Source of the DNA: a virus
DNA length: 41,890 nucleotides
Direction: 5' to 3' (one strand)
IMG/VR virus record: IMGVR_UViG_3300037517_002214
Location: 1 to 41,890 of that record
The notes under the pieces are model-generated. The model searched no databases, had not been told where the DNA came from, and saw nothing but the letters and a program-made list of their open reading frames with translations. Shown one piece after another: positions 5,629 to 34,860 of this stretch. The first letter of the stretch is position 1; every line of letters starts with the position of its first letter. Position numbers and translations under genes: made by a program.

Positions 5629-6000
5629 CTAGGGGTTGTCCACGGCCTTTTGGGCGGCCCGCTGGCAGGCTTTCCTAATCAGCCACTTCGCCCCAGTCTC
5701 GCTCCACGGCAGGATCGTCTCGCGCTTGGCCCTGCGCTGGGAATGCTCCGTTCGCATGGCCTTGAGGATTTCCGGCATCCCCGGCCCTTGGCACCACTCT
5801 GGCCCGTTGGCGTCCATCTTCTTAGCCATCGCGTTGCACGAGCAGCCGAGGTTGGAAACGATCCCGAACCAGTCCTTCAGCAGCGTTTTGAGTTCCGTCC
5901 CAGGCCCGGTTTCCGGCATGTGGGCCGCTGCCGGCGCGCCGGTATGGCAGTCGCGGTAGACGGCTTCACCGTTCTCGTAGGTTTTTTCGACGCAACTCAT
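5629..6000 (-). CDS. Small cysteine-motif protein
   Basis: 123 residues. A central block GTELKTLLKDWFGI...LGCSCNAMAKKMDANGPEWC holds C-x-C plus a distal Cys, a pattern I have seen repeatedly in small phage and Planctomycetes proteins near tail or glycosyltransferase genes (metal-binding or disulphide-bonded). The C-terminal part is basic and helical. Two bases separate it from the stop of the giant cysteine-rich gene upstream, so it belongs to the same late transcript. Function unknown. Confidence 0.7.
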   Translation of the reverse strand: MSCVEKTYENGEAVYRDCHTGAPAAAHMPETGPGTELKTLLKDWFGIVSNLGCSCNAMAKKMDANGPEWCQGPGMPEILKAMRTEHSQRRAKRETILPWSETGAKWLIRKACQRAAQKAVDNP

Positions 6001-6002
6001 GG

Positions 6003-8708
6003 TTATTCCATTACGTTTACGATAGTGATCTCAAAGTCCTTCTCAACATAAAACCCGCTGGAATCGGTCGATCGGATTCTGATCGTCGCAGATTGCTGCG
6101 ACTCAAAGTCAAATGCCTGCGAAGTTTTCAGAGATGTTCCTTGAATAGAAAAACCGCTCCCTGAAACGATTGTGTATGTGAACGAGTCGTCTATGTATGG
6201 GTCTTCAATGTCAGCGTCAACGGTGGACAGCGTCCCGACGGTTGTTCCGATCGGTTCGTTTTCGCGAACGGCGAGCGATGACAGCAGGATGTCCGTTGGG
6301 GCGGCAGCGATCACAAGCGTGGATGTGTCCGACTCGTACTTCGCCTTGACTTGAGTCCCTGTCAGGCTTGGCGCGTACAACTGAACTGTCGGCCCAGCAA
6401 AGAGAACGTATCTTGATTCAGGCTCGGGGTCATCTGAAAACTCCACCGTTAGCGTACTGCTCGTAAACGTCGCCGAGGTCACGAGGCCGCCTGGGTTGGT
6501 GATCGGCTCGTTGGCGATCACCGTTCCGCCAGTGATCGACAGACTGCCGGTCATGCTGTTCTGGTTCAGCGTCAGCGTTCCGGCCTCGTTGACGATGCCG
6601 CCAGCACCGGATAGGTCACTGACCGTCAGGTCGCCGCCGCCTGTGATTGTCAGCGTCCCGGTCACTATCAGGTCATCCAGGGACTGCGACACCGCTGGAT
6701 CACCGGGCTCTTCTTGCAGTATCAGGGTCGCCGTGCCTGCTGTCACGGCGGTTGTTGGGTCGATGCCGCCGTAGGTGGTCCCTTGCACTCGCAGCGATGC
6801 ACCGGAGGCCAGCGTCAGCCCGCCGCCCGCGACGAGCAGATCATCAGCCCCGATCCTCACACTGCCATAGGCGACGGTGACTTGACCGGTAGTAGTCCCA
6901 GCACTGCCGACCGTGTTCAAATAGAACTCACCCTCGTAGCCTGCTGCGCCGAAAATTATGTCATTGTCAGCGGGGAGGTTCCCGTTCCCGTCAGCCCATG
7001 ACCCCCTGAACTCAAAGACTCCTCCCGCCTTGGCTACCAGCGTCAGCGGACGGCCTATCCTAATTTGGCCGATCATATACACCCGGCCGGAGTCGGCCAT
7101 GGCCCCGATTATCACGGGCTGTGAGCCGGGCAAAACATATGGGTCGAACGCCACATACAAATCCTTTTCTATCAGCACCGTGGCAGGGCCGCTATCGCCA
7201 CCTATTTGCATCATGTTTCCAAGTGACCCAGCGTTTCCGATTTGGAGCGTGCCGCGCCTTACCGTCAGGACGCCCTCCAAAACATTGCTTGGCGCATTCA
7301 ATCTCCACCGGCCAGTCCCATCCTTGATCGCATGACACTGCGCAGAGCCGGCTGGGTCATTGATCCTGCGAATCTCGTTGGCGTGATCGCTAGAACCCGA
7401 CAGCGTCAGCGTCCGGTCGCAGTTACCAGCGTGCGTGACGGCACTCGTCAGGACGAGCGGCCCCGTGCCGTCTGCGCAAATCTCGCCGTCGCCTCGCATT
7501 ACGATGTTGGCGTTGCTCGTGTGGCCTGGGCCGTCGTAGGTCATCACCGTCTTGCACTCGTACAGGCAGTTGCCCAGCCAAATTGTGATGCCGTTGCAGC
7601 CAGAGAACTTCAGCGTCTCAGCGTCGGTCGCCGGTGAATCCCAGCACACCTTGATCTTGAGGTCTTGGAAGTTGGAACCGCACGGCACCGGCTCGACGTT
7701 GAATGCGTCCCAGCACAGCGGAAACACAATCGTCTCGCGGACGCACCGGTCGTATGGCGTCGGGATATACAGTTCGCCGTGAACGCGGACGGCCGACATA
7801 GATTCAAGTTCCACCCGCACCCACACCGTGTCGCTGATCGGCGGCAGCCGCTTAGTGCGTGGCTGGTAGAAGGTCAGGCCAGCAGCCTTGCTGGTTTTTT
7901 CTTCGCAGCAGCAGGCGTCGAACGGCGGGCGGCAGCGAGCGTTCTGCGGACATCCAGGCTCCGTGCTTATAAGGCACTGCGTCGTCCCGACGCCCTGAAA
8001 CTCGCCGCCGACGCCGTCGCAGTTCGCCTTCGTTGTCGGCGACGACTCGTGCAGGACGTAGTCTCCGTCTTCGTTGTAGACGCAGCATGCGCCTACGCAG
8101 GCCGCTTCATCGCAACTGTTTGAGGTGGCGCGAATGGACGGCGCTGGGCAAGTCGCTTGATCGACAACCACGCAATGCCCGTCGTCTGGGTCGCAGCACG
8201 GCACCGGACACCCGAGATCGCAGCATCCGCCAAGAAACTGCCCGGCGCATTCGGAGGGCTTCTTGCTTTGGCAATTGCCATTTTCGCAGCACCGGCCAGG
8301 ACACTCCCCCCACTGGTCACGAAACACGATCGCGCCGTCGCACGCAGGGCAGCACAGGCCAGCCGCGACGTTTTCGGCTCCTTCGATGCCGCCGTTCAGT
8401 TCTGGATTCATGGCGTTCGGAGGCACGCACCCGCAGCACTGATCTACCTCGTCGCCCCACCGCAGGAACGTCCACCCCTCCTCGCATGGCGCGTCTGGGT
8501 CGTTTTCAGGACTCCAGATTTCGTCGCCGCAGCAGTACCCAGGCTCCGTTTTCCACTCGTCGTTGCAGCACTGCCCCTGCCCCTGCCCCTCTTCGCAGTG
8601 GCATTCGCCGTTGCAGAAAGTGCCGCCGCGAACGCACTCGCACCAAAACCGACAGGTACTGACGATCAGGCCGTTGAACACGGCCAACGCGCCGTTGATT
8701 ACGAGCAT
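6003..8708 (-). CDS. Giant cysteine-rich, beta-helical and cadherin-domain tail protein
   Basis: 901 residues in three parts. Residues about 18-275 hold about 40 cysteines, many as CC pairs or CCC, with spacing like small disulphide-knotted or EGF/WAP-like repeats. Residues about 300-790 are beta-rich with repeated G-rich strands (LTLASGASL, LTITGGG), like autotransporter-type right-handed beta-helices of tail fibres and adhesins. The last about 95 residues (ENEPIGTTVGTLSTVDAD ... FDFESQQSATIRI ... FEITIVNV) are a cadherin-type repeat; its calcium motif is read as DAD plus the DFE segment. Position after the tape measure supports a tail-tip or receptor-binding role. The cysteine density implies oxidation outside the cytoplasm or metal binding. 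It overlaps the upstream gene by 10 nt. Confidence 0.85.
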   Translation of the reverse strand: MLVINGALAVFNGLIVSTCRFWCECVRGGTFCNGECHCEEGQGQGQCCNDEWKTEPGYCCGDEIWSPENDPDAPCEEGWTFLRWGDEVDQCCGCVPPNAMNPELNGGIEGAENVAAGLCCPACDGAIVFRDQWGECPGRCCENGNCQSKKPSECAGQFLGGCCDLGCPVPCCDPDDGHCVVVDQATCPAPSIRATSNSCDEAACVGACCVYNEDGDYVLHESSPTTKANCDGVGGEFQGVGTTQCLISTEPGCPQNARCRPPFDACCCEEKTSKAAGLTFYQPRTKRLPPISDTVWVRVELESMSAVRVHGELYIPTPYDRCVRETIVFPLCWDAFNVEPVPCGSNFQDLKIKVCWDSPATDAETLKFSGCNGITIWLGNCLYECKTVMTYDGPGHTSNANIVMRGDGEICADGTGPLVLTSAVTHAGNCDRTLTLSGSSDHANEIRRINDPAGSAQCHAIKDGTGRWRLNAPSNVLEGVLTVRRGTLQIGNAGSLGNMMQIGGDSGPATVLIEKDLYVAFDPYVLPGSQPVIIGAMADSGRVYMIGQIRIGRPLTLVAKAGGVFEFRGSWADGNGNLPADNDIIFGAAGYEGEFYLNTVGSAGTTTGQVTVAYGSVRIGADDLLVAGGGLTLASGASLRVQGTTYGGIDPTTAVTAGTATLILQEEPGDPAVSQSLDDLIVTGTLTITGGGDLTVSDLSGAGGIVNEAGTLTLNQNSMTGSLSITGGTVIANEPITNPGGLVTSATFTSSTLTVEFSDDPEPESRYVLFAGPTVQLYAPSLTGTQVKAKYESDTSTLVIAAAPTDILLSSLAVRENEPIGTTVGTLSTVDADIEDPYIDDSFTYTIVSGSGFSIQGTSLKTSQAFDFESQQSATIRIRSTDSSGFYVEKDFEITIVNVME

Positions 8709-9394
8709 GCGGTTTCTGCTGAGATGGGGAGCGAGAGCGTCGCCGTCTCGCCGGGGTAGGGAATCCAGGCTCGGATGCGAGTGAACTCGATGGCGGCTGT
8801 GGTTAATGAAACTGAAGTAATTACGGCCGTCTCGTGGTGTTGCACGTTCAGCAAATGCCAGGCGGGGTTATTCTGTTGCTCGACGGTTGGGACTTTCGCG
8901 ATGTACGCTATCTGCTCTGTGCAGGCGTCTCCTATCGTGAATAGTTGATTCCAGGCCGCTGCGGTGTTTGTGCTGCCTTGAAATGTCAGCGTCTTCGTTT
9001 CGTTAATTGCCCATGATCCGCTAAACGTGCAGGCCCGAATTATGTCTTTGGGTGGCGACTCAACCTCGACCGCCGTCTGCGTCCCCATGACGGATCCGAA
9101 GACGACGTTGAACGAGGCCGACGACGCCGTGCTGCCCTCGGCGTCGATGCAGTAGTTAGTGACTGCGTAGGTCTGCGTCGAGCCGACGAGCGTTACGACG
9201 GCCGTTGTGCCGATGGCCCACGAGCCGGTGTAGGTGCCGCGCTTGAGCTTTTGGCCGGGGGACGGCTCATCCTCAAACCGAGTCTGTATCCGCGACAGCC
9301 CAGCCTGGTAAGGCATCGAGTCGACGCGCTTCACCACGCTGATGATGCGGTCGGTCAGAACGGGGCCGAATTGGTAGGACTTGTTTTCAGCCAT
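8699..9394 (-). CDS. Predicted tail-tip structural protein
   Basis: 231 residues with two internally similar beta-rich segments: a TYTGSWAIGTTAVVTLVGST block (about 55-75) and a TFSGSWAINETKTLTFQGST block (about 125-147) each read as F/Y-x-GSWAI-x-x-T-x-x-(V/L)-T-(L/F)-x-GST. That is a tandem duplication of a beta module. No catalytic motif is visible. Its start shares one base with the stop of the upstream gene. Position between tape measure and the cysteine-rich protein suggests a baseplate or tail-tip component. Confidence 0.75.
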   Translation of the reverse strand: MAENKSYQFGPVLTDRIISVVKRVDSMPYQAGLSRIQTRFEDEPSPGQKLKRGTYTGSWAIGTTAVVTLVGSTQTYAVTNYCIDAEGSTASSASFNVVFGSVMGTQTAVEVESPPKDIIRACTFSGSWAINETKTLTFQGSTNTAAAWNQLFTIGDACTEQIAYIAKVPTVEQQNNPAWHLLNVQHHETAVITSVSLTTAAIEFTRIRAWIPYPGETATLSLPISAETACS

Positions 9395-10455
9395 CAGACG
9401 ATGTCGAAGATGCGGACGCCCATGTTGACGAAGTTTGGTCCGAAGGCGACTGTCTCTTGAGTCAAATACCTGTCTGTCAAGACGGCGTCCTCGCCACCTG
9501 GAGGGTTTTCGACGTCTCTCGGCGTGCCGTCTCTGTTGAGGGCCACCGGCTGGGCGGATGGACGCTGCGTGACGGCGCCCTCGGGGGCGCTGATCAGCAC
9601 CCTGGCCCGCATCTTCTTTCCCTGCGAGTCATCGGCTAACTCCGGTGCGTTAGGCCACCCGACGATCTCTTCATTGACGATCTTGAGGTTCAGCGCTCCG
9701 TTGTCGACTCCTGCCTGATTGACGCCATCGTTTTTGATGTTGAAACCCTCGATCAACTGGTCGATGAACCACCCGCCGTTGGTCTTGATTGCGAACTCGT
9801 AGGTGCGCTTGAATCCTCGGTACAAGGCCGCGCCGTGAGACTCAACAACCGGCTGCACGGAGATATTTCGCAGCATACAGGTGTATTTGGCAACTGGCAG
9901 GCCGAGAAACGTGAAGTCGTCGCTGTTTACCTTCCCGGCGTCCTCGAGCCTGCGAGTCGGGAAGTTGTCGAATTGCTCGATGTTGATTGAGATGATCGGC
10001 ACAAGCATCGACACGCCGTCATATCTGTCCTTGACGGGGTTCAGCGGCGGCGTCGGAGATGCAAGGCCGACGGACGTAATGAGTCGCCACCTCGTCGTCG
10101 GAACTTCCATCAGCGACGATGTGATGCTGTATTGCGCTGGCCTGATGTCAGGCGGTTCTTTGTTTGGATCGTTGCCTGGATCGGCTCCAGGCGTCGTCCG
10201 GTAGTTCGCCGTGACGATGCGGACGACGCGAGAGTCACCCTCGGCCTTCTCCGAGATGGAGACGCACGGGAGTTGCGTGTTTACAGGGTGCGTGTCGCCG
10301 ATGTAGACGCCGATCGCCTGCTGGACGTCATACGCCTCTGACGGCGAGTTGAGGATCACCCGCCAAGACCGCACTGAAACGTCCGCGACCTGGCCGCCGT
10401 CTACGGAGCGGCTGTTCTCGTTGCCGGACGTTATCTCCTTGACTAACTTCGGCAT
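9394..10455 (-). CDS. Predicted tail/baseplate protein
   Basis: 353 residues, not recognised as a named family. The mix of beta-strand-like segments and Pro/Gly-rich loops, and its place 2-3 genes after the tape measure, suit a distal tail or baseplate hub protein. A central region (FTFLGLPVAKYTCMLRNISVQP) and the segment RTYEFAIKTNGGWF look like compact beta domains. The next gene starts on its last base; 3 nt separate it from the gene before. Function by context only. Confidence 0.75.
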   Translation of the reverse strand: MPKLVKEITSGNENSRSVDGGQVADVSVRSWRVILNSPSEAYDVQQAIGVYIGDTHPVNTQLPCVSISEKAEGDSRVVRIVTANYRTTPGADPGNDPNKEPPDIRPAQYSITSSLMEVPTTRWRLITSVGLASPTPPLNPVKDRYDGVSMLVPIISINIEQFDNFPTRRLEDAGKVNSDDFTFLGLPVAKYTCMLRNISVQPVVESHGAALYRGFKRTYEFAIKTNGGWFIDQLIEGFNIKNDGVNQAGVDNGALNLKIVNEEIVGWPNAPELADDSQGKKMRARVLISAPEGAVTQRPSAQPVALNRDGTPRDVENPPGGEDAVLTDRYLTQETVAFGPNFVNMGVRIFDIV

Positions 10456-10829: not shown

Positions 10830-13800
10830 TTATCCTCTGATTTCCACGACGTCCTGACCGGCCTGTTCGTTGATGGCGTCGATGACGCCCTGTAGCAGTT
10901 CTGACTGCTTCTGAAGTTCGACGAGGTTGACGTCCTTGTTGGGATCGTCGCCGCGGAGAAGGCGGTTGAGTTCGCGATTCCCTTCCATCGTCTGGGCGTC
11001 AGCTACGTTGAGCGCCGCCCGCGACGGCCCCTGGAGCATCGCGTTCATCCGCTCCTCGCGGAATCCGGCGAGCATCGGGGCGACTTGCTGCAACTGCTGC
11101 TCGGCGAGGCGGTTGAGGGCGGCGTTGCGGCCGGCGACGTCGGCGACGAACCGCTGGCCTTGCAGTTCAACCGTGAACGCCTCGGTTATGTCCCTAGCGC
11201 TCTGCTCGACCTCTCGCCTTGCTCGCTGGACTGGCGTCATCGCGAGTTCGCGACCACGGTCGCCTGACGCCGCACGCTCCGCGCGGCGCGTCATATCGTC
11301 TCGCTGACGTCTGGCAGCCTGAACCTCGGGGTCGCGCTCCGCGTCTGCGTTGATGCTCTCCTGCAATCTCCTGCGTTCCTCGCGGGCAGCGGCACGCTCC
11401 TCGGCCGTGCCGCCGCGGGTGCCGTCGGCGCCAGTGTCGTTGGCTGGGGCAGACAGCATGGCGTCAATTTCACGAAGACGACGGAACCTTGGATCGCCGT
11501 TACGGATGGAGTCCTGCTCCATGCGCTCGATCGCAGACGCCCGGCGGTCCTCGAACTCCTGCTGCGCGCGGCGAGCGTTGCGGACGTCCTCTTCGGCTCG
11601 CGTCCGCTGGGCTGCCGTCTCTGGCGTCCCCCTGGCAACATCCTCTCGCCTAGCCTGCTCGGCCCGCTGCTCAAGCGTCGCGACGTCCTGGGCGACCGAC
11701 TCCGACAACCTCGCCAGTTCGGAGCCGAAAGTCTTTACGGCCGCGGCGGCGTCGCGGAGAGCGTTGATATGGGCCTTAATGGCGTTGACGTCATCGTTGA
11801 GCGCCCTGGCCTCTTCGACGCGGCCTGCCTGGGCGGCCTCGCCCGCGGCCTTCTGCAACTGGGCCAGTGACTCCGCGAACGCGGCAATCTCTTCCTCGAT
11901 CGCACTCGCACCAATGACACCCTCGAATGCCGAGGCGATGTCGGCCTGGGCGGCGTTCATGGCGTCCGCGATCCGCAGGGCTTCGCGGCTGATGCGGGCG
12001 GCGAGTTTGTCGGCTTCAATTTGCCTGACTTGGACTAGAAGCTGCTCTCGGATTTGCTGGAGTGGCTGGATGATGTCTCCAGTCGCACCGGACTGCCGGA
12101 GGGCATTGATACGTTCTTCGAGAACCCTGATCGCTTCGTCTGGAGACTGGCCGATGTTTTGCAGTCCGGCGATTCGAGCCTCGTTGCGTCGCTCCGTATC
12201 TCGCGCCAACTGGAACGCACCGCTGTTTCCGGCTGCGCGTGCTCCAGCAAAAGCGCGTTGGGTTTCGCCTCGGATTTCCGCCTCAAGGGCAGCAATTACT
12301 CGCTGCCTGACGTTGCCTGCGCCGTTGCGGTTGGCGTCTCTGACAGCCCGCTGCTCCTCCTGCCGCTGACGTTCTTGGGCGGCCTGGAGTTGCAGCCTCG
12401 CCCTAATTTGCTCGCCAGGAGTCGTTGCCGCGTTGAGTTCTCGCTCAAACCTTGCGACGTCTCCGCGAGCCGCAGCGACGCCAACATCGACGGCCTGGAT
12501 TCTTTGCTCGCGGGCCTGACGCTGCTGCTGCTGAATCTCCTCAACTTGACGCCGAATGGAGGCGTTTCGCTGCCCCTGCTGCGACAGGCCGGCGTCCTGG
12601 ACTGCTTCAGCAACCTTCTTATAGGACTCTGCCAGGGCGTCAACGACTCGCTTCTGGTCGGCGAGCGCAGCGTTCAACGCCTTCGTCTGGTCTTCAGACT
12701 TGCGGCCGTTGTTGTACCAGTTGATCAATGCTGCAACGAGTTGCGCGCCGATGGCGGCCGAGATGCCGGCAATGAGTCCGGTTGTCCCGCCGATAATGAA
12801 CCCAAGTTGCGAGATGTTGTTCCCGGCCGCGCGGATGCGCTGGTCAAGGCCGCCGGTAACGCTGAAGAAGTCTTCGACAGCGAAAGCAGCCTGCTGGATA
12901 GCAAGGCCAGCGCGGTCGCCGAAGCCTCGAGCCTGGTCGCCGGCCCGCCGGAAGTCCTCGGCGAATCGGCCAGGTCGCACGCCTTCCGCAGCCGCGGCGG
13001 TGCGGATTAACTCTTGCCTGGTGCGTGCAATATCCGCCGCGGCCTGCTCCGCGCTGTCTGCCGTTCCAGAGAATGCGCGGAATGCCGCCTGTCTGTAAGC
13101 CTCAAGGGCGGCGACGGCTGGGCCTCGCTGCTCGGCGGTCAGCCGAGAGAGTCTGTTCTGAACGAACTCGATCTGCGATCCGACGGAACGCAGTTGCCGC
13201 TCGTCGATGCCCAGCGACAGGCCGGCGACGCCCTCGCCACCGAAGTTTTGCAGAAACTGCTGGCCGATGCCTCGGCGGCTGTTGAGCGCAGCCTGGATGG
13301 CTTGCGTCTCCTGCTGAACTCGCCGCAGTTGGTCAGCCGTAAATCCGACGCCGGCGCGGCCGAGGTTTTGCCACCGAGTCGTGAGGTTGTCGACAACGGG
13401 GCCAAGCGATCCAGCCAAGTCAGGCAGTTCGCGGAGTTGATTGCGGACGGCTGTGATCTCGCCGCCGACTCGGTCAAGGAACGCCTGCTGCGGGTTGACG
13501 CGAGACGCTGCCCCCTGGTTTGACAACAGTTGCGAACCACTCTGGTCTACATTGAGGAACCTGGACGCTGCCTCGGCGCGGCGTTGGGCGTCGGCAAGCG
13601 CATCCGTGCGAATACGCGCGTCCTCAAGCAGTTGCAGATAGGCGCGGACGTCCGTCTGCTGGCCCTCGCTCGCTATGAGATTCGACTCACGTTGGTCGAC
13701 AACCAGGAAGCGGGACGCGGCCTCGGCCCGCCGCTGGGCGTCGGCCAACGCTTCCGTTCTGGCCCTGGCCTGCTCAAGAAGTTGGATGTATTCGCGAATG

Positions 13801-14903
13801 TCCTGCTGCTGGCCCTCATTCGCAATCAGGTTCGACTCCCGCTGGTCGACGTTGAGGAACCTGGACGCTGCCTCGGCCCGCCGCTGGGCATCAGTCAGCG
13901 CTTCCGTCCTTGCCCTCGCCTGCTCGAGCAGTTGGAGGTACGCGCGAATGTCCTGCTGTTGGCCCTCGTTCGCAATCAGGTTCGACTCGCGCTGGTCGAC
14001 GTTGAGGAACCTGGACGCTGCCTCGGCGCGTCGCTGGGCGTCGGCAGCGGCCTCTCGCTGGGCGTTCGCCGCCTGCTGCGACAGCGTGATCTCTCGCTCC
14101 AACTGGTCATTGACCAACCGCAGTGACGCGACCTGGCGGTTGTACGCGGCCTCGGCCGCCTGCGCGTCTCCATTTCGCGTGGCGCGGATGCGCTCGAGCG
14201 TGGAGAGGAGATTCGCCGCCTCCTGGGCCGCCTGCCGCTGCTGGCCGACGAGGGCCGCCACGCCGCTGCCTTGAATCTGCTCTGGCGACAGGGCCGCGGC
14301 CTGCTGCTGGAGCGCGGCGGCGCGGGACGTCTGCTGGAGGAAGCCAGGGCGCTGGAAGCGGAGTTCCTGGCCGGAGGCGAGGCCCGCGGTTGCCTGTCCC
14401 GCCTCGCGGAGGCGGCTCGCGGCCTGCGTGACGCGGTTGATCCTCGCTTCGAGGTTGGCAAAGTCGCGCTCGCTGACCCTGGCGCCGTTGCCGATGGAAG
14501 TGCGGAGTTGCTCGGCCGCCTTCTGCGCCGACTCGAGCGCCGGGGCGAAGTTCCGCTGCACCTGGGTCGACAGACCGGCGAAGTCCTTCGCGGCCTGCGA
14601 GACTGGCTTGGCGATCCGCTCGGCGGCCTCGGCGAACTGCCGGATCGCCTGCACTTCCTGCTGATTGACTAACTTGAGATTCTGGCCGACGCCGACCTTG
14701 AGCGCCCGCTGCAACTTTTGCAGCGGTGTCAGGATGTTGTCGAACTCACGACCCGCGCGGCTCGTGGCACCGGAGATCGTGCTCTGAATCTTCCGCGCGA
14801 ACTGCGTGACGTCCTTGGCGCCGGCGTTCAGTCCTCGCGACAGACCCTTGGAGTCTGCCGTGAGGATCGCCGAGATTTTGCCAAGGTAGCCGCGTCCAGC
14901 CAT
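10830..14903 (-). CDS. Tail tape measure protein
   Basis: 1357 residues, by far the longest gene, immediately after the tail chaperone frameshift pair, as in siphophages. The first about 600 residues and the C-terminal half are Gln/Arg/Ala/Glu-rich coiled coil, and a hydrophobic stretch about 690-725 (LGFIIGGTTGLIAGISAAIGAQLVAALI) is the usual tape measure membrane segment. Residues about 288-455 are near-perfect 50-residue repeats. Tape measure length sets tail length, so about 1350 residues imply a tail of roughly 200 nm at 0.15 nm per residue. No lytic or peptidase motif was recognised in it. Confidence 0.93.
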   Translation of the reverse strand: MAGRGYLGKISAILTADSKGLSRGLNAGAKDVTQFARKIQSTISGATSRAGREFDNILTPLQKLQRALKVGVGQNLKLVNQQEVQAIRQFAEAAERIAKPVSQAAKDFAGLSTQVQRNFAPALESAQKAAEQLRTSIGNGARVSERDFANLEARINRVTQAASRLREAGQATAGLASGQELRFQRPGFLQQTSRAAALQQQAAALSPEQIQGSGVAALVGQQRQAAQEAANLLSTLERIRATRNGDAQAAEAAYNRQVASLRLVNDQLEREITLSQQAANAQREAAADAQRRAEAASRFLNVDQRESNLIANEGQQQDIRAYLQLLEQARARTEALTDAQRRAEAASRFLNVDQRESNLIANEGQQQDIREYIQLLEQARARTEALADAQRRAEAASRFLVVDQRESNLIASEGQQTDVRAYLQLLEDARIRTDALADAQRRAEAASRFLNVDQSGSQLLSNQGAASRVNPQQAFLDRVGGEITAVRNQLRELPDLAGSLGPVVDNLTTRWQNLGRAGVGFTADQLRRVQQETQAIQAALNSRRGIGQQFLQNFGGEGVAGLSLGIDERQLRSVGSQIEFVQNRLSRLTAEQRGPAVAALEAYRQAAFRAFSGTADSAEQAAADIARTRQELIRTAAAAEGVRPGRFAEDFRRAGDQARGFGDRAGLAIQQAAFAVEDFFSVTGGLDQRIRAAGNNISQLGFIIGGTTGLIAGISAAIGAQLVAALINWYNNGRKSEDQTKALNAALADQKRVVDALAESYKKVAEAVQDAGLSQQGQRNASIRRQVEEIQQQQRQAREQRIQAVDVGVAAARGDVARFERELNAATTPGEQIRARLQLQAAQERQRQEEQRAVRDANRNGAGNVRQRVIAALEAEIRGETQRAFAGARAAGNSGAFQLARDTERRNEARIAGLQNIGQSPDEAIRVLEERINALRQSGATGDIIQPLQQIREQLLVQVRQIEADKLAARISREALRIADAMNAAQADIASAFEGVIGASAIEEEIAAFAESLAQLQKAAGEAAQAGRVEEARALNDDVNAIKAHINALRDAAAAVKTFGSELARLSESVAQDVATLEQRAEQARREDVARGTPETAAQRTRAEEDVRNARRAQQEFEDRRASAIERMEQDSIRNGDPRFRRLREIDAMLSAPANDTGADGTRGGTAEERAAAREERRRLQESINADAERDPEVQAARRQRDDMTRRAERAASGDRGRELAMTPVQRARREVEQSARDITEAFTVELQGQRFVADVAGRNAALNRLAEQQLQQVAPMLAGFREERMNAMLQGPSRAALNVADAQTMEGNRELNRLLRGDDPNKDVNLVELQKQSELLQGVIDAINEQAGQDVVEIRG
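13543..14042 (-). repeat. 150-bp in-frame tandem repeats inside the tape measure gene
   Basis: Three full copies (14042-13893, 13892-13743, 13742-13593) and a partial fourth (13592 to about 13543). Each encodes a 50-residue unit starting DAQRRAEAASRFL and including the segment DQRESNLIA and, in the full copies, YLQLLE-x-AR or a close variant. Copies differ by only a few residues. Unequal recombination between copies would change tail length in 50-residue steps. Confidence 0.9.
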
Positions 14904-19468: not shown

Positions 19469-19662
19469 TTCGCCTTCCTCCTGGCCGGCTGCGGCATCGT
19501 GGCCCGCTCGCTCCGCTCTTCGACGGTCGCGGCCTCCAGGCGACGCTCGCCGATCTCCTCGACCATGCCGCGGGCGATGTAGATGCGCGCCGCGCCGTCG
19601 CCCCAGTCAAACTCTTGCCCGACGCGGTAGCCGGCGAACGACTTCAGTACGCGAATCCTCAT
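19465..19662 (-). CDS. Small basic/acidic protein, unknown
   Basis: 65 residues. The first half (RIRVLKSFAGYRVGQEFDWGDGAARIYIARGMVEEI, read as two stretches) resembles the small beta-barrel-like proteins often found between capsid and connector genes of phages, and the C-terminal third is charged (RRLEAATVEERSERA..ARRKAK). 4-nt overlaps with both neighbours support that it is a real gene of this operon. No function assigned. Confidence 0.7.
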   Translation of the reverse strand: MRIRVLKSFAGYRVGQEFDWGDGAARIYIARGMVEEIGERRLEAATVEERSERATMPQPARRKAK

Positions 19663-20387
19663 GGCACGAATCCCCAGGCGCCTTCCGGCGGCTTCTTCCC
19701 GTTGTTCCAGAACTCCGTCGTGTGCTGCTGCACCTTGCCGCCTTCGACGCTCCTGGAGGGCCAGGTGATCATCAGTTCGGCGTGGCCGACGCTGACGTTG
19801 GTGGCGATGCCCAGGCGGTTCCCGCTGGCGGCGAACTTCTTCCAGAAGTAGATGTCCTCGTCGATATGGCCGCCCGTGAACGTCCCTTCGTCATTGGCCT
19901 CGGCCAGGAACCACGGCTTCGCCATCTTCTTGATGGCCGCGGTGCGGATGAACGTGCAGCCGAAGTGCGCTGTCTCGACGGGCTGGACGACCTTCTGGAA
20001 CCAGTCGTTTTCGACCGTTGTCTTCTCGTCCGGCGTGATCCCAGGCAGGGCGAACATCACCGTGTTCGCCTCCCGCTTGGTCTGAAGCGGAGCGAGGGCG
20101 TCGAAGCCCGAGTGCATCAGGAGGGCGAGGAGCGCTTCCACCGTCTTGGCGGTGAAGATCGTGTCATAGTCGATCGTCAGCACGACGTCGTGCGTGTCGA
20201 CGACCTGTTCCATGCACCGCTGGAGGCATTGACCGAAGAACGCGCCCGTGTATTTGATCGGGGCGATCCCGTGCGGCGCGAGAGCCTGCGAGATGCAGAA
20301 GAAATTATCAGTGAAGCCGAGGCGAGGGACGCTCATCAGAGCGGCTACCTTCACCTCGGCTTCACAATTACCGACACGCAGCAGCAT
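19659..20387 (-). CDS. Glycosyltransferase-like protein in the head module
   Basis: 242 residues. A GT-A-type fold is suggested by LTIDYDTIF, a D-x-D motif at 73-75, followed by helix TAKTVEALLALL, and by FGCTFIRTAAIKKMAKPWF and GHIDEDIYFWKKFAASG, which match the acceptor/E-D-x-x-F region of GT2-like enzymes. Expected role: transfer of a sugar to a virion or host acceptor using a nucleotide sugar and a divalent metal. Its place between the capsid accessory gene and connector genes suggests glycosylation of structural proteins, but this is inference. The ribosome site AGGAG lies in a small hairpin (20393-20408). Confidence 0.8.
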   Translation of the reverse strand: MLLRVGNCEAEVKVAALMSVPRLGFTDNFFCISQALAPHGIAPIKYTGAFFGQCLQRCMEQVVDTHDVVLTIDYDTIFTAKTVEALLALLMHSGFDALAPLQTKREANTVMFALPGITPDEKTTVENDWFQKVVQPVETAHFGCTFIRTAAIKKMAKPWFLAEANDEGTFTGGHIDEDIYFWKKFAASGNRLGIATNVSVGHAELMITWPSRSVEGGKVQQHTTEFWNNGKKPPEGAWGFVP

Positions 20388-27167: not shown

Positions 27168-28382
27168 CTAGTCTAGGCTTGTAGCGTACCGCTGCACAAA
27201 GGAGTCGAGCGGTTCCGCGCCCCGCAGGCAATTACACTTCCAGCAGGCGGCCTGGCAGTTGTCGAGGACATGGCCTGGGCCGTCCGGCCCCAGCGACAGA
27301 GGGGCGATGTGGTCGATGGTTGGGCATCGAGGATGCGGCGTCCTCGTGCCTGGCATGACGGTGAATGATGGAAGCAACTCGCAGCCGCATATCTGGCAGG
27401 CCCAGTTGGCGCGGTCCATGACCACCTTCTTGCTCACCTTGGTGTAGGCGGCGCCGTACTTCTTGCACCTTTGCCTGAACGTACATGCGTGACCGTACAG
27501 CCGCCTTCTGCGTCGCTTGTTTTCGCGGCGGCTCTTGATTTGACGGTCTTTTGCACACTGGCCGCATAGCCGCCTTCCTGGTTGACACTCACAACCACAT
27601 TCGCTGCAAAACCGCAGCGGCTGGCACCGATCACACATGGTCTTGCCGGAGCCGAAGCCGACGATGGCAGACTCTCCGCAGCGGGCGCAGGCAATCGTCT
27701 CGTGCTTCGGCGGTTCAGTGGCCTCTCGGCGCCACTCGAGAAACCAGCCGGCAAGTTTATGGGCAACCTCTAGCGGGCGAGAGGCACACGGCAGTTTGCG
27801 GCGGCGTGCGTCGAACGCGCATTCGCGAGAGCAGTATTTCGACTGCACCGAGTAGGCGCCGCTTTTATACCTCTTGCGTGTGAATGTAACGCCGCAGCAG
27901 AGACATTCATAAACCTTCGCCTGGCAGGCGCACTTATACGAGCAATACTGCTGATTCGCTTTGTTTGTCTTGAAGTTCCTTCCGCATCGCTTGCACTGTA
28001 TTGGATCGCCGTGGATGATGCCTTTTCCGTTATGCTGACACCGACGAGAGCAGAACTTCTTTTTGTACGGCGAACTGAATGCCCCTCCGCAACGGACGCA
28101 CGCTTGATCAAGCAGCCTCCTTGGACGGCAGTAGGCGGCCAGGCACTTTTCGCACTGGATTCCAGACCTCGGCCCACGGCCTGGATAGTCCACGCGGACT
28201 CCGCACTTGAAGCAGAAGCACGGCTGGTTGCGGCGAAGATGCAGACCCTTCGACGCAATGCTGGCACAGCGGCTCGAGCAATACTTTCTCGGCTTGTACC
28301 CGAGAGACGCAGGCACACCGCTCCCGCAGACGGGACACGATTTGACCTCCTTGTCGCCGCAACATCCGGTGTCGCAGGCCAC
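27168..28382 (-). CDS. HNH endonuclease with long zinc-ribbon array
   Basis: 404 residues. The C-terminus is an HNH nuclease: CQICG (329-333), D357-H358 in TIDHIAPLSLG, N375, CWKCN (380-384). The first about 280 residues hold seven pairs of C-x2-4-C motifs: 16/19 with 35/39; 57/60 with 77/80; 95/98 with 111/115; 130/133 with 147/151; 160/163 with 184/188; 232/235 with 250/253; 259/262 with 273/276. Each is a zinc-ribbon or treble-clef-like unit, followed by a very basic linker (SRRENKRRRRR). HNH nucleases next to terminases help packaging (HK97 gp74); the zinc array likely binds nucleic acid. The start is GTG 28382 with no clear SD; a perfect AAGGAGGT lies about 35 bases inside but leads into another frame. 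Confidence 0.85.
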   Translation of the reverse strand: MACDTGCCGDKEVKSCPVCGSGVPASLGYKPRKYCSSRCASIASKGLHLRRNQPCFCFKCGVRVDYPGRGPRSGIQCEKCLAAYCRPRRLLDQACVRCGGAFSSPYKKKFCSRRCQHNGKGIIHGDPIQCKRCGRNFKTNKANQQYCSYKCACQAKVYECLCCGVTFTRKRYKSGAYSVQSKYCSRECAFDARRRKLPCASRPLEVAHKLAGWFLEWRREATEPPKHETIACARCGESAIVGFGSGKTMCDRCQPLRFCSECGCECQPGRRLCGQCAKDRQIKSRRENKRRRRRLYGHACTFRQRCKKYGAAYTKVSKKVVMDRANWACQICGCELLPSFTVMPGTRTPHPRCPTIDHIAPLSLGPDGPGHVLDNCQAACWKCNCLRGAEPLDSFVQRYATSLD

Positions 28383-29457: not shown

Positions 29458-30327
29458 ATGAAGACTATCGACACTGCGACCATTAACAAGTCCGTCCGCT
29501 CTATCCTTTCTGACAACACGAAACTCCGAAAACTGCCCAACGGGCAACGGGTGATTAACGCTGGCGTTACGCTGGCACCGTCGAAGCGTTCGGGCATCGT
29601 CAACGTCTGCCCACATGCGACGGCGGCGTGTATTCTGGTATGCGTTCTCTGGTTCGCGGGTCGCACCGTAACGCGAACGGTGCGGGAGGCCGCCACGAAG
29701 CGTACGCGCCTCTGGTTCTACGATCCTGCGACGTTCTACGCTCGTTTGGCGCGTGAACTTGCGGCGCTCGCCCGCAAGGCGGCGCGGGATGATGTTCGCG
29801 GATTCTGCCGAACCAACGTAGCAAGCGACGTTGATCATCCGCACGAAGTCTACACGGCCCACCCTGCGATCACGTTCTACAACTATACGAAGAACGAAGA
29901 CCACGCCGCAGCGTACGGGCGTGGTGAGTTGCCCGCGAACTACCACGTTTCCTATTCCGTTTCAGAGCGCACCACGTTTGAAACGGCCCGCGCCTTGAAT
30001 GCCGCTGGTGTCAATCTGGTGGTGGTGTTTAACAGCCACTACTTCGGGCCGCTTCACCGCTTCGGCATTGTTCCAGCCAGCGTTCGTTTCGTTTCGCGCG
30101 CCACGGGCGAGACGTTCACGGTCGACACGGTCGACGGTGATATTCACGATCTGAGAACGCCAGAGTTTGACGGGCGCGGTGTGGTGGTGGCGTTGCGGGC
30201 GAAGAGCGGCGCGAAGCTGCGGGCGCGGGCCGTTGAACTGGGGTTTATCAAGCGTTTCGCCGCTGGGGCGAAATGGTTCGTTGATGAGTACGTTCGCGCG
30301 GGTGAGTGTGTGGTCGAATTGAACTAA
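29458..30327 (+). CDS. gp88-like phage protein
   Basis: 289 residues, the largest plus-strand gene. Conserved elements: N-terminal small polar part, then C51-x6-C58-x3-C62 (CPHATAACILVC), REAATKRTRLWF, and (V/A)-S-D-V-D-H-P with AITFYNYTKNEDHAAAYGRG and VVFNSHYFGPLHRFG. The cysteine block and flanking order resemble the phage gp88/GP88-type family (CPxATxxCxxxC); function in that family is unknown. Loss of the usual CYA ending is visible. It is followed directly by a strong hairpin and the 35-bp repeat array. Confidence 0.7.
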   Translation: MKTIDTATINKSVRSILSDNTKLRKLPNGQRVINAGVTLAPSKRSGIVNVCPHATAACILVCVLWFAGRTVTRTVREAATKRTRLWFYDPATFYARLARELAALARKAARDDVRGFCRTNVASDVDHPHEVYTAHPAITFYNYTKNEDHAAAYGRGELPANYHVSYSVSERTTFETARALNAAGVNLVVVFNSHYFGPLHRFGIVPASVRFVSRATGETFTVDTVDGDIHDLRTPEFDGRGVVVALRAKSGAKLRARAVELGFIKRFAAGAKWFVDEYVRAGECVVELN

Positions 30328-30406: not shown

Positions 30407-30733
30407 AACACCACGCCCGCACCACGGGCCGACAGCATCGACCACCACGCCCGCACCAGCGGGCCGACAGCATCGACCACCACGCCCGCACCAGCGGGCC
30501 GACAGCATCGACCACCACGCCCGCACCAGCGGGCCGACAGCATCGACCACCACGCCCGCACCAGCGGGCCGACAGCATCGACCACCACGCCAGCACCAGC
30601 GGGCCGACAGCATCGACCACCACGCCCGCACCAGCGGGCCGACAGCATCGACCACCACGCCAGCACCAGCGGGCCGACAGCATCGACCACCACGCCCGCA
30701 CCAGCGGGCCGACAGCATCGACCACCACGCCCG
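30407..30733 (+). repeat. Array of 35-bp tandem repeats with internal hairpin
   Basis: Eight full units of exactly 35 bp (30441-30720), one leading degenerate 34-bp unit (30407-30440) and a 13-nt truncated end. Unit: ACCACCACGC CCGCACCAGC GGGCCGACAG CATCG (spaces for reading). Each holds GCCCGC-ACCA-GCGGGC, a perfect 6-bp hairpin with tetraloop. Units 5 and 7 differ only by C to A at position 11 of the unit. Because 35 is not a multiple of 3 the array is open in several frames on both strands by composition alone, so it is treated as non-coding. Spacers are identical, so it is not a CRISPR array; it resembles iterons, a partition/origin site or a structured leader. Confidence 0.9.
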
Positions 30734-30934
30734 ACCGTAGAAACCCCGACCGTAGAAACGGGCCGCCCCCCGAACATGGAAACCCCGAACGTGGAAACCC
30801 CGACCGCCTGGCCCGATCATGGAAACGAGCCGCAGCTGCGGCCCGGTGCGTGGAAACCCGTATCCTTCGAGGATGCCCCCGAGCGTGGAAACTGGGGGTA
30901 TCTAAGGTCGGCCGCCGGGCTGATCGGGCTTTCT

Positions 30935-30972
30935 GGGGCATTCTGTGACTGCCATTTTTGGCAAAATGCCCC
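30935..30972 (+). other. Compound hairpin in the non-coding block
   Basis: GGGGCATT (30935-30942) pairs with AATGCCCC (30965-30972); inside, TGCCA-TTTT-TGGCA (30950-30963) forms a second stem. The outer stem has a 7-nt one-sided bulge. It would be stable in RNA of either strand and lies about 40 nt before the next gene. Confidence 0.6.
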
Positions 30973-31014
30973 CCAACGTGGAAACGAGCACCCCCAACGT
31001 AGGAACGAGAACCA

Positions 31015-31269
31015 ATGAAACGAAAACGAACGAAAGCAGAACTGGAGCGGCTCGCCGCTGACTTTGAAGACCGCATGGCATGGCTTGAGACGGCATGGGG
31101 GTGCCGAACGGAATACGAGGTCGATCTGGCGACCGGCCGCGTCTGGCTGAAGGTCACGATGCCAGCCAGCCCGACCGCGCTCGTGGTGCGGTGCGCCATC
31201 GACGGCATCACCCTCCCCGGCACAAGCCCGGCTGGCGCGGATTCTCACGATCCCAACTGTCCTGGCTGA
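31015..31269 (+). CDS. Small protein, unknown
   Basis: 84 residues. It begins MKRKRTKAELERLAADFEDRM, a basic/helical start, then Cys 29-x-T-E-Y-E-V and ends HDPNCPG. The ATG is preceded by motif CGTAGGAAC and GAGAACCA. No family recognised. The next gene lies 136 nt on, after another motif copy and a candidate promoter. Confidence 0.65.
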   Translation: MKRKRTKAELERLAADFEDRMAWLETAWGCRTEYEVDLATGRVWLKVTMPASPTALVVRCAIDGITLPGTSPAGADSHDPNCPG

Positions 31270-31316
31270 CTCCGAACGTGGAAACGAGCGGCGAAAACGA
31301 AAAACAGATTTTAGGC

Positions 31317-31344
31317 TTGACTCAACTTGTGCCGATGCTAGGAT
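31317..31344 (+). promoter_or_regulatory. Candidate sigma70-type promoter
   Basis: TTGACT (31317-31322), 16-nt spacer, TAGGAT (31339-31344), 62 nt before ATG 31406, in the gap between two small genes. Spacing matches the 28698 promoter; the -10 is poor. Confidence 0.45.
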
Positions 31345-31405
31345 TGTCACGAACGAGGGCGACGGTCGCCCCGATCATGGAAACCCAAGAACGAGGAAAC
31401 GAGCG

Positions 31406-31627
31406 ATGACAACGGAAACGAATCTCCAGTGGCAGGTGGTGCGCGGCTTCGGCGATATCGTCGACTCCCCGAACGAGTGCTTCGACCTTGAAGTGGTCGC
31501 GACGTTCAAGAGCGAAGCCGACGCGCAGGTTTTCGCTGATCTCTACTACGAAACGAACATCGTGGACATTCAAGAGCGGATGCCCGGCATGTGGAAAGCG
31601 TTTTTCGTGACCGTGAAGAAGTCCTGA
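31406..31627 (+). CDS. Small protein, unknown
   Basis: 73 residues, acidic, with FKSEADAQVFADLYY. The leader CGAGGAAACGAGCG lies directly before the ATG, and a second CATGGAAAC copy lies 16 nt further upstream. The A-x-V-F-A-D-L helix pattern is like that in other small phage proteins of the region (ATREEAEQFL). Function unknown. Confidence 0.7.
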   Translation: MTTETNLQWQVVRGFGDIVDSPNECFDLEVVATFKSEADAQVFADLYYETNIVDIQERMPGMWKAFFVTVKKS

Positions 31628-31660
31628 ACCAACCCCAACCCCCGAACGAGGAAACGAGCG

Positions 31661-31963
31661 ATGCGACAGATGATGCAGCAAAACCCAGCAGACAAGCAGC
31701 GAGCAAAAGAGGTCAGCGATATTTTCTGCGCTCTTGAGGAGTGCATGTGCTACTTGAGCAACCGATGGGCAGACGAGCATGAATATGAAGACATTGCTGA
31801 CTACAAGAGCAGGATCGAAGCAGAACTGTCCGAACTGAAAGTCGATGGTTTCGCGATCACCAAGATGACGCGGCGGCCGTTTGGTTTTGTCGCGTCATAC
31901 AAAGGCGCAGAGTACAAGTTCAAGGCAGGCGCGCGAGCCTACGAATACACGCGCACGAAGTGA
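31661..31963 (+). CDS. Small protein, unknown
   Basis: 100 residues. Helical N-terminus (QQNPADKQRAKEVSDIFCALEECMCYL in two stretches), then beta-like C-terminus (GFVASYKGAEYKFKAGARAYEYTRTK). The leader CCCGAACGAGGAAACGAGCG precedes ATG 31661. Its stop is 38 nt before the next gene's ATG. No family recognised. Confidence 0.7.
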   Translation: MRQMMQQNPADKQRAKEVSDIFCALEECMCYLSNRWADEHEYEDIADYKSRIEAELSELKVDGFAITKMTRRPFGFVASYKGAEYKFKAGARAYEYTRTK

Positions 31964-32001
31964 CAGTTTTATTCACCAACCCCCGAACGAGGAAACGAGC
32001 G

Positions 32002-32301
32002 ATGCGCGACGTTACATGGTATGCTGTCTACGAAAGCAACGATTCCAAGGGCTACGATGCGGACTACGTTCCCTGCGTCAGTCGCGATGCCGCGATGCAG
32101 GCGGCGGAAGGGTACCTGGCGTTCGCCAGCGGCGAACGCGATGCGGTCTACATCGTGGCAGTGCCGCATTCGTTGTGCGTGACGGACAACGAGGAGTGGT
32201 CGCTCTGGGAGTGCCTGGGAGAGATCGAAGCCGATGGTGCGTCGAACTTCGTGCATCTGCATCGCGGCCCGCGATACGGTGAGGATGCAGCTGCGGTCTG
32301 A
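32002..32301 (+). CDS. Small protein, unknown
   Basis: 99 residues from ATG 32002, chosen because the leader CGAGGAAACGAGCG ends exactly there. A start upstream in the same frame would run through the motif. The product is acidic with YLAFASGERDAVYIVAVPHSL, which looks like a small beta-alpha domain. No known motif. It is followed by 110 nt of gap that contains two motif copies. Confidence 0.7.
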   Translation: MRDVTWYAVYESNDSKGYDADYVPCVSRDAAMQAAEGYLAFASGERDAVYIVAVPHSLCVTDNEEWSLWECLGEIEADGASNFVHLHRGPRYGEDAAAV

Positions 32302-32411
32302 CGCAGGCCCGGAGCGGATGCCATAGCCTGCATACCGATAGAACTACGGGGCGGCGCGTTGCCGCCCCGGATCGTGGAAACGATTGGAAGCCCCGTAGGA
32401 GGAAACGAGCG

Positions 32412-32690
32412 ATGGGCGCGGAGTTTGACTGCCGACGATTCGATGATGCCGACAAGGCGACCGTGCAGGCGAAGTGGGAGGCGGCCGTCGACAGCGACAG
32501 TCGCGAGAACGGCCGTTCATACAGCGGCACAATCGCGATGCTGCCTGGCCCGATCTCGTGGCGGCTGGAGCAGTTCGCCACCCGTGAGGAAGCCGAACAG
32601 TTCCTCGTGGAGAAGCACCAAAAGTGGGAACCACCGATGGCGGTACGCTGCGGCGAAGGGTGGATTGTCGGAGGGTGGTGCTCTTCGTAG
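32412..32690 (+). CDS. Small protein, unknown
   Basis: 92 residues. The leader AGGAGGAAACGAGCG precedes ATG 32412. It contains QFATREEAEQFLVEKHQKW, resembling the short aromatic-rich input-strand/helix proteins seen at 31406. No catalytic motif. Belongs to the motif-controlled gene set. Confidence 0.7.
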   Translation: MGAEFDCRRFDDADKATVQAKWEAAVDSDSRENGRSYSGTIAMLPGPISWRLEQFATREEAEQFLVEKHQKWEPPMAVRCGEGWIVGGWCSS

Positions 32691-32763
32691 CAAGGCATTC
32701 GATGGCAGGGGCCGCGTCGGCCCCGAACGTGGAAACGATACCCCCGAGTGGAGGAACGCGACG

Positions 32764-33117
32764 ATGGGATATGTGAGCAACGCGATGATCGAAATGGCCG
32801 AGGCCGGCGCCGTCATGGCCGAGGTGACCGAGGTGCAGGCGTGGCGGGCTGCCGGCCACACCGTGCCGCTGGTGTGGGTCGAGGTCGACACCTACCGGGG
32901 CCGGCGGAATATGCCTGCCATGACCCTGGAGACGGCCGAGCGGCTCGCCGGCTGCCTGGATGACGAGGAGGCCCGCGAGACGCTGCGGCAGGCCGTGGCC
33001 GATGCACGCAGCTACCTCGCCACGGTCGGCCGGGTGTGCGCCCAGTGCGGATGCCACGGGCAGCGGCACTGGTTCGTGAACACCGGCAGCGAGACGCTGT
33101 GTGTGGAGTGCGGGTGA
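32764..33117 (+). CDS. Small zinc-ribbon protein
   Basis: 117 residues from ATG 32764, placed by the ribosome site (GGAGGAACGCGACG) despite an open frame that extends further upstream. The C-terminal VCAQCGCHG...HWFVNTG...LCVECG has two C-x2-C pairs (about 92-117), a probable zinc ribbon. The N-terminal part is helical (SNAMIEMAEAGAVMAEVTEVQAW in two stretches) and includes RAAGHTVPLVWVEVDTYRG. Function unknown. Confidence 0.72.
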   Translation: MGYVSNAMIEMAEAGAVMAEVTEVQAWRAAGHTVPLVWVEVDTYRGRRNMPAMTLETAERLAGCLDDEEARETLRQAVADARSYLATVGRVCAQCGCHGQRHWFVNTGSETLCVECG

Positions 33118-33214
33118 TGCCGACACCGCCCCGGCTCGTTGCCTGGGCGGTTCGATTAGTGGATGATTTCACCAGACCCCCGAGTGGGGGAACGAGAAGC
33201 AAAAGGGAACAACG

Positions 33215-33811
33215 ATGGACTGCATTATCTGCACGATGCCTGAGTGCTGCGGCGAAAAGGACTGCCCGGTCGGCTGGCATCTCGCCCACTACTGGCGATA
33301 CGACGACGGCACCTACAGCGTCTGCGATTCGGACGGGAATCACGACGACTGCGACGAGAGCGATATCCCGACCGACTCCGAGTATAGCGCCGCCTGGCTC
33401 GACTACTCGCGGCACGTTGCCGATACCGGCTGCGACCCGCTGGGGGAGTTCCACGGCATCCCCCGTGCGACGAAACGGAAGGAGCGGTATACCGCAGCCT
33501 TCCGCCCTTCGATCCTGGGCGGCAAGCTTGTCGCCGTCCGGCGCGGCGGCAAGGTCATGCCGCTGCGTGACCTCCCGCAGCGAGTGATCGACTACCTCGA
33601 CTGCGAGCGGATGCCTGGCGAGGCCGGCAACCTCCGGTTTCGCGGCGGGTGGCAGGAGTTGACAAGCCTGGACTGCGTGAAACTCTACCGCGGCACGGCC
33701 CGCGTCACCTTTACGCTTGACCATGAGGAGCCGAGGCCCGCGGCGGCCGTCGAGGCCGACCTGCGACGAGCGGCTCGACGCCACCTGCGAGAAAAGAAGG
33801 CGAAGGCGTGA
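33215..33811 (+). CDS. Cysteine-rich small protein, unknown
   Basis: 198 residues. The N-terminus has clustered cysteines (MDCIICTMPECCGEKDC, 1-17) and an acidic aspartate/serine-rich part (DGNHDDCDESD), which suggests metal binding. The middle has FRPSILGGKLVAVRRGGKVMPLRD and the C-terminus is basic. A weaker leader (AAAAGGGAACAACG) precedes the ATG. No known family. Confidence 0.7.
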   Translation: MDCIICTMPECCGEKDCPVGWHLAHYWRYDDGTYSVCDSDGNHDDCDESDIPTDSEYSAAWLDYSRHVADTGCDPLGEFHGIPRATKRKERYTAAFRPSILGGKLVAVRRGGKVMPLRDLPQRVIDYLDCERMPGEAGNLRFRGGWQELTSLDCVKLYRGTARVTFTLDHEEPRPAAAVEADLRRAARRHLREKKAKA

Positions 33812-33921
33812 GCGACCCGCCCTGGTCCCCCGGCCGGCGAAACGCTGGTACGGGGGCGACGGGCGGGCCGCGGTGGCCCGGAACGTGGAAACCCATAACC
33901 CTAGAGACGAGGAGAGCGACG

Positions 33922-34170
33922 ATGACCGACCGATTCAAGTTCCTGGCCGTGCGCCGTGCCGGCCGCGTGGCGATTGTGCGTGTGCTGCATAGCGGCGAGG
34001 TGGCCGGCTACGATCCCGTGGCCGACCGCGAGCAGCGGCAGCGGCACTTCAAGATTCACCGCGGGCCTGCGGCATACGATGCTGCCTTCGGCGACTCGCG
34101 GCAGTATGGCAGCCTGGAGGATGCCGTGGCCGACGCGGCTGTGGCTGGCCGGTGGGTCGAGACTGCCTGA
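33922..34170 (+). CDS. Small basic protein, unknown
   Basis: 82 residues from ATG 33922, favoured by GACGAGGAGAGCGACG directly before it; an alternative GTG at 33808 overlapping the previous stop (GTGA) would add 38 residues, mostly translated from the motif-bearing leader. The core RFKFLAVRRAGRVAIVRVLHSGEVAG is beta-like. No family recognised. Confidence 0.68.
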   Translation: MTDRFKFLAVRRAGRVAIVRVLHSGEVAGYDPVADREQRQRHFKIHRGPAAYDAAFGDSRQYGSLEDAVADAAVAGRWVETA

Positions 34171-34242
34171 CCCCCTGACCGTGGAAACCAGAGTTCGATT
34201 TCACCCTGCCGCCCCGTGCGGCGAAACCAGAGGAGAGCGACG

Positions 34243-34608
34243 ATGATCTACTGGATTCTGGCCGATATCGCCGGAGAGCACGGCCGCCGGCACGATGGCA
34301 ACTGGGAGCCGTTGTCGAAGCGTGAGCCGGCGAGCGACGAGGTGGAGCGGTTCCACCGGCACGCCGACGCCGTGGCGAAGGCCCGGAAGCTCAAGGCGAA
34401 GGATTGCCACTGCAAGCCGCTGAAGCAGGAAGGCGTCGTGTTCTACTGGCATCTGCCGGAGGCGGCGGCCGGCGAGAGCGACCTCGCCGAGGTCGTCGAG
34501 TTTCGGTCGGCGAGGCAGGCGGCGGCGTGGCGGAAGCGGGCCGAGGCCGAGGGCTGCGAGGTGATCGAGTGCCTGGGGACGGCGAAACGAAAGGCGGCGA
34601 AGAAATGA
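34243..34608 (+). CDS. Small protein, unknown
   Basis: 121 residues from ATG 34243 with leader GAGGAGAGCGACG. Helical and basic toward the end (AWRKRAEAEGCEVIECLGTAKRKAAKK). H-C-x-C in KDCHCKPLK is the only metal-like site. It overlaps the next gene by 4 nt (ATGA), so they are coupled. Confidence 0.7.
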   Translation: MIYWILADIAGEHGRRHDGNWEPLSKREPASDEVERFHRHADAVAKARKLKAKDCHCKPLKQEGVVFYWHLPEAAAGESDLAEVVEFRSARQAAAWRKRAEAEGCEVIECLGTAKRKAAKK

Positions 34609-34790
34609 GCAACCGCATCAGCCCATACGAAGCCGGCTGGCTCACCTTCCTCGTCGAGCAGCGGCTGGCGACGGCCTCCGAGGCCCGCGAGGCACAGAAT
34701 CGCGTGGCACAGGATGCCGTCCGCGAATTGGAGGAGCGCCGGCGGCAGCGCCGGCTCGAGCGCAGGCGGAAAAAACGCGAGGAGGACTAG
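34605..34790 (+). CDS. Short basic helical protein
   Basis: 61 residues from ATG 34605 (ATGA overlap with the previous stop). The C-terminal half is a highly charged helix (RELEERRRQRRLERRRKKREED), typical of a coiled-coil or nucleic-acid-binding tail. The N-terminal part reads SPYEAGWLTFLVEQRL. No family. The size fits an anti-host or regulator peptide but this is a guess. Confidence 0.68.
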   Translation: MSNRISPYEAGWLTFLVEQRLATASEAREAQNRVAQDAVRELEERRRQRRLERRRKKREED

Positions 34791-34825: not shown

Positions 34826-34860
34826 TGACAGTGGAGCGTAGAAACCAGAGGAGCAGAGAC

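Follow-up and report, generated by a model that had tools for sequence, protein, structure and literature searches.

The window, by which we mean the whole 41,890-nucleotide stretch of DNA analyzed here, derives from an uncultured caudovirus (tailed phage) with an HK97-like capsid, and the 901-aa gene under study (positions 6003–8708, minus strand) lies within its tail module. Genes on one strand follow the order TerS, TerL, portal, head protease, capsid, head–tail adaptor, tail chaperone and a long open reading frame, followed by genes for proteins of 122, 353, 231, 901, and 123 aa and then by exonuclease and nucleotide-metabolism genes. The long frame (10830–14903, minus strand) is the longest gene of the window and encodes a 1357-aa protein devoid of cysteine and lacking a PHROG match; from its size and its position after the tail assembly chaperone we infer that it is the tape measure protein, which makes the 901-aa gene the fourth one downstream of a putative tape measure gene. 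A 150-bp tandem repeat (3.4 copies, 13538–14045) is found inside this long gene. The immediate neighbors of the 901-aa gene, likewise on the minus strand, are the genes for the 353-aa tail-region protein (9394–10455) and the 231-aa protein (8699–9394) on one side and a 123-aa companion with conserved cysteines (5629–6000) on the other. The frame of 901 codons begins with ATG on the minus strand, which the preliminary description had left unstated, and the plus strand is interrupted by stops; the counts and coordinates given there were correct.

Several features elsewhere in the window were recorded as well. Weak glycosyltransferase-type Pfam matches (PF13632, PF11735), below cut-off, fall on the minus strand at 39358–40212 and at 19659–20387, the latter gene being located between the head and adaptor genes. 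The plus-strand gene block encodes a GP88 family protein (29458–30327; PF17338, E 1.9e-32). A 35-bp tandem repeat (9.3 copies, 98% matches) occupies 30409–30733, and an interspersed element resembling CCCCGAACGTGGAAACGAGC is scattered over 30806–35987; some of its copies run straight into an ATG (GAGGAAACGAGCGATG) ahead of small plus-strand genes, and the element may serve as a recurring promoter or translation signal.

The 901-aa protein contains 50 cysteines, 40 of them within residues 19–268 (7905–8654, minus strand) and none beyond residue 458. Its relatives in IMG/VR comprise near-identical copies, a group at 72–75% identity and a more distant group (L024, L037–L039). Within residues 1–275, 31 of the 40 cysteines are invariant as opposed to 42 of the 235 other residues (Fisher p 2e-13, a nominal value only, as the aligned rows are related), and for residues 58–275 the proportion is 30 of 32 cysteines. 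Since frame and cysteines persist in homologues of only about 42–52% identity and dN is lower than dS in all regions, this is not a chance open frame: the cysteine-rich gene is real, and its homologues share the very cysteine pattern whose absence from them the preliminary description had named as evidence against its proposal. A lipobox at C19 was ruled out, as relatives have F or R at this position, and matches to placenta growth factor among PDB sequences (E 0.03–0.05) are attributed to chance arising from cysteine richness. Conservation is unevenly distributed along the protein. Residues 276–395 are 92–98% identical among close relatives, whereas residues 471–700, its most divergent part, are only 45–49% identical; the corresponding nucleotide identities of 94–97% versus about 54–59% in most pairs (77% for L006/L008) indicate recombination between diverged alleles. 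A conserved, presumably virion-proximal part is thus combined with a divergent and exchangeable distal part, as in tail fibers.

The divergent stretch belongs to a predicted right-handed beta-helix (residues about 405–760; 6429–7496), which is preceded and partly overlapped by a conserved domain defined by alignment (residues 276–470; 7299–7883) and followed by a cadherin-like domain (residues 802–901; 6006–6305), all on the minus strand. The beta-helix, already proposed in the preliminary description, is supported by the NCBIfam beta-strand repeat TIGR02601 at residues 461–491 (above its cut-off), by a Pfam PATR match slightly under cut-off (E 1.7e-5), by an AlphaFold2 model with pLDDT values of about 70–90 for most of residues 461–720, and by fold searches of the PDB, in which the UpaB autotransporter was the best match (Z 14.0, rmsd 6.1, 286 aligned residues, over residues 383–750) and the K1 capsule lyase matched as well (Z 11.3, rmsd 5.8, 285 aligned). 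For residues 802–900, many cadherin EC domains were retrieved (Z about 11, rmsd 2–3, about 90–98 residues), whereas the Pfam PF00028 match at residues 812–885 (E 1.6e-5) reached 25.6 bits versus a gathering cut-off of 28.8; for this reason the proposed cadherin domain is upheld here as cadherin-like by fold. Structure prediction, which had been suggested as a check, thereby recovered the beta-helix and the cadherin fold, most of both being modeled confidently, but it did not extend this confidence to residues 1–300: the cysteine-rich part was modeled with pLDDT values of about 25–48, so that no disulfide pairing is predicted. The notion that a terminal cadherin is unusual did not hold up. Cadherin domains with 27–39% identity to that of the fiber also occur in proteins of cyanophage SS120-1 and of phages of Rhizobium and Caulobacter, the similarity being confined to the cadherin part (in AF3 it also includes some of the preceding 100 residues). 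Our literature search on phage cadherins gave nothing direct. Moreover, most relatives of the fiber end short of this domain while the distant L039 carries it, in line with an optional tip.

Among known systems, beta-helical tailspikes and depolymerases such as the K1 capsule lyase (Klebsiella, PDB 7w1c) resemble the fiber in having a conserved N-terminal part, a variable beta-helix and a history of gene exchange; the fiber differs from them by its cysteine-rich N-terminal domain and its cadherin tip. With the UpaB autotransporter passenger (PDB 6bea; TIGR02601/PATR) it shares a beta-helix with beta-strand repeats, but it has no signal-peptide-like start, is encoded among phage tail genes and gave no Pfam match to an outer-membrane barrel.

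The strongest evidence that the 901-aa gene encodes a tail adhesin was obtained by comparing its gene neighborhood between phages. Contigs L004–L007 and L009 share with the window the fiber (72–74%), the 123-aa gene (95–97%) and residues 119–231 of the 231-aa protein (74%; its C-terminal half, encoded at 8702–9040, minus strand), whereas their counterpart of the 353-aa protein has 24% identity or no match and no match to the tape measure was found. Conversely, L031 and L034 share the tape measure (89%) and the 122-aa protein (97%), but their fiber slot is occupied by an unrelated protein of 1059 aa, and of the 231-aa protein they retain only residues 1–69. The exchanged unit thus comprises residues 119–231 of the 231-aa protein, the fiber and the 123-aa protein, to the exclusion of the 353-aa protein. 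The alternative 1059-aa protein matches PHROG tail fiber, baseplate and virion structural families via its repeats. This slot protein (L031:9488–12667) contains GSGYTSAPTV repeats and an N-terminal cysteine cluster (GCSPCCGGCSKC). As the block is transferred among phages whose tails differ and can be replaced as a whole, it behaves like receptor-binding tail fibers and spikes, and the fiber probably docks to the C-terminal half of the 231-aa protein. Position, cassette exchange and architecture together lend good support to the earlier designation as a tail protein, and the tailspike- or fiber-like working of the protein is likewise well supported.

Within the cysteine-rich region, residues 206–243 resemble what we take to be a repeat of planctomycete proteins, termed the GACC repeat in the following. 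A degenerate DNA pattern for this repeat, run on bacterial genomes, matched at least 119 stretches; among the 80 matches listed, 67 bore the title Planctomycetota, Phycisphaerae or planctomycete, 7 came from other phyla and 6 were designated ‘bacterium’ only, and the same pattern found 3 viral contigs. An HMM built exclusively from the bacterial repeats was then scored on the fiber and matched residues 206–243 with 23.5 bits (repeat 3, residues 205–253; 7950–8096, minus strand), while it reported no match in 2000 shuffled sequences, 1000 of them with cysteine positions fixed. Two degenerate GACC-like repeats may precede it on the same strand, one with a weak score of 5.3 bits and appropriate spacing (repeat 2, residues 168–204; 8097–8207), the other proposed from its cysteine spacing at a score of −2.9 bits, below noise (repeat 1, residues 136–167; 8208–8303); one of the three proposed repeats thus scores well. 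Repeat 3 has the pattern GACC....TxxxC..GG.[FY]QG.GT.C and the richness in CC pairs in common with the repeat of secreted Planctomycetota/Phycisphaerae proteins, but has about 7 extra residues and lacks the cysteine normally present in ‘DGxC’, so that the six-cysteine set is incomplete and the phage copy is a divergent GACC repeat at best. A further difference is that a signal-peptide-like N-terminus was called in 68 of 84 bacterial GACC proteins (a simple heuristic, applied to proteins with a start inside the locus) but in only 1 of 22 phage proteins, and not in the fiber. The eight proteins scanned gave no Pfam or NCBIfam model for the repeat. For the repeat, AlphaFold2 (68 sequences) predicted a small beta-beta-alpha-beta unit with a pLDDT of about 85 over residues 11–45 of the model, for which the PDB fold search returned no match; this is not to be taken as proof of a new fold. 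On viral contig L176, the gene for an unrelated GACC protein (308 aa, 37 cysteines, L176:645–1571), in which no signal-peptide-like start was evident by eye, is the third one downstream of an unambiguous tape measure gene (PHROG E 1.6e-52). This suggests that such a domain has been incorporated into a tail region repeatedly or is passed around among phages of this kind. Another phage contig encodes a short GACC-repeat protein, again with 37 cysteines, at L194:8001–8696, and L196–L198 share only its first 91 residues.

The preliminary description had considered acquisition from a host surface adhesin. This idea stands insofar as residues 206–243 are tied to extracellular planctomycete proteins, leaving aside the direction of transfer, but no bacterial homologue was detected for the rest of the domain: no relative turned up when bacterial genomes were searched with the alignment of the conserved N-terminal part, nor was the N-terminus matched in eight GACC-rich genomes, a weak result for want of a positive control. 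The similarity could alternatively reflect convergence of two cysteine-rich sequences on a protein that would still be a tail fiber. Indeed, the matches are short and dominated by cysteine and glycine, there is one strong repeat only, and, as we designed the search pattern with the phage repeat in mind, its GG.[FYW]QG.GT.C part matches partly by construction. The host-built HMM, with its score on residues 206–243 and its silence on the shuffled sequences, nevertheless argues for shared ancestry, as do matches outside the search pattern (GA before CC, TxxxC before GG) and the very uneven distribution of the pattern among phyla, and we therefore consider convergence unlikely. Less probable still, in our view, is that the protein is not part of the virion at all but a phage product acting within or upon the host and playing no part in the tail. 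Neither a PHROG match in general nor a PHROG tail annotation was obtained for the fiber, and the repeat it has in common with host secreted proteins would suit such a function. However, the gene's position in the tail module and its coupling to the preceding tail gene, the occupation of its slot by proteins matching tail and virion families, and the lack of a signal-peptide-like start for export all speak against it.

A related issue is the state of the cysteines. Metal binding at the phage tail tip has a precedent in lambda gpL, which binds a [4Fe-4S] cluster through four cysteines (PMC10721106). As presumed for the fiber, gpL has its cysteines in a siphophage tail tip, but four Fe–S cysteines there are set against 40 in the fiber, a comparison that extends to cysteine number and spacing only. 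The fiber might thus be a tail protein whose cysteines bind zinc clusters or Fe–S and are stable in the reducing cytoplasm, where a protein with no signal-peptide-like start would be made. Vicinal CC pairs, furthermore, are also found in metallothioneins. Yet in residues 1–275 of the fiber CC is enriched (10 versus 5.7 expected from shuffling) and CxxC is depleted (2 versus 5.6), with only 3 histidines in this stretch, whereas an HNH protein of the same phage displays the opposite, zinc-type pattern (CxxC 12 versus 5.5 expected). The HNH endonuclease (404 aa, 27168–28382, minus strand; Pfam E 6.9e-6) adjoins the terminase small subunit and has 48 cysteines in a CxxC-rich, zinc-finger-like arrangement. 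Bacterial GACC proteins resemble the fiber in this respect (748 CC and 115 CxxC in 6452 cysteines), and the matching repeat resides in secreted bacterial proteins, in which disulfides are usual. Metal ligation is accordingly a doubtful explanation, and the sequence patterns indirectly favor disulfides, which would form after release from the cell since the fiber has no export signal.

The host is probably a planctomycete. TerL matches were found in 21 of 298 Planctomycetota genomes (best 43%) and capsid matches in 9 of 392 (about 30%), but these are too distant to assign a host and were obtained with no comparison phylum; regions beside the TerL matches contained no comparable tail module. The 123-aa companion gene or a related cassette was not matched in the 392 genomes either, again a weak result as there was no positive control, and our literature search on planctomycete or cysteine-rich tail proteins and on Phycisphaerae phages gave nothing direct.

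Taken together, we consider it likely that the protein is a modular tail-tip fiber or spike, i.e., a receptor-binding adhesin of a tailed phage that probably infects planctomycetes, with a disulfide-hardened stalk. According to this model, the fiber, which may be a trimer, would be made in the cytoplasm and would join the tail via the 231-aa protein encoded just before it, namely via the C-terminal half of that protein, which is variable. The virion-proximal anchor or stalk would consist of the cysteine-rich N-terminal part, in which one or more GACC repeats lie, together with the conserved domain next to it; the beta-helix would serve as the variable, possibly polysaccharide-binding receptor-binding body, and the cadherin would be an optional extra tip. 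Upon exit of the virion from the cell, the fiber cysteines would most likely pair into disulfides and harden the stalk, and the same repeat presumably forms disulfides in secreted host proteins. One may go further and envisage, as a possibility we rate as rather improbable at present, that on more than one occasion planctomycete phages have co-opted a host extracellular disulfide repeat to serve as a scaffold in the virion; the protein would stay reduced during cytoplasmic assembly and acquire up to about 20 disulfides after lysis, yielding an oxidation-matured adhesin that perhaps docks on similar repeats at the host surface.

The fiber is real, conserved, and mosaic, and represents an unusual variant of the modular phage adhesin, equipped with a cysteine-rich anchor. 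The surface of Planctomycetota is unlike that of model bacteria and, to our knowledge, very little is known about its recognition by phages; here, the fiber block provides a specific adhesin cassette that is exchangeable and whose borders are defined. It is also a test case for whether phages rely on oxidative cross-linking after lysis, and it points to a widespread Phycisphaerae cysteine repeat that library models missed in the proteins scanned.
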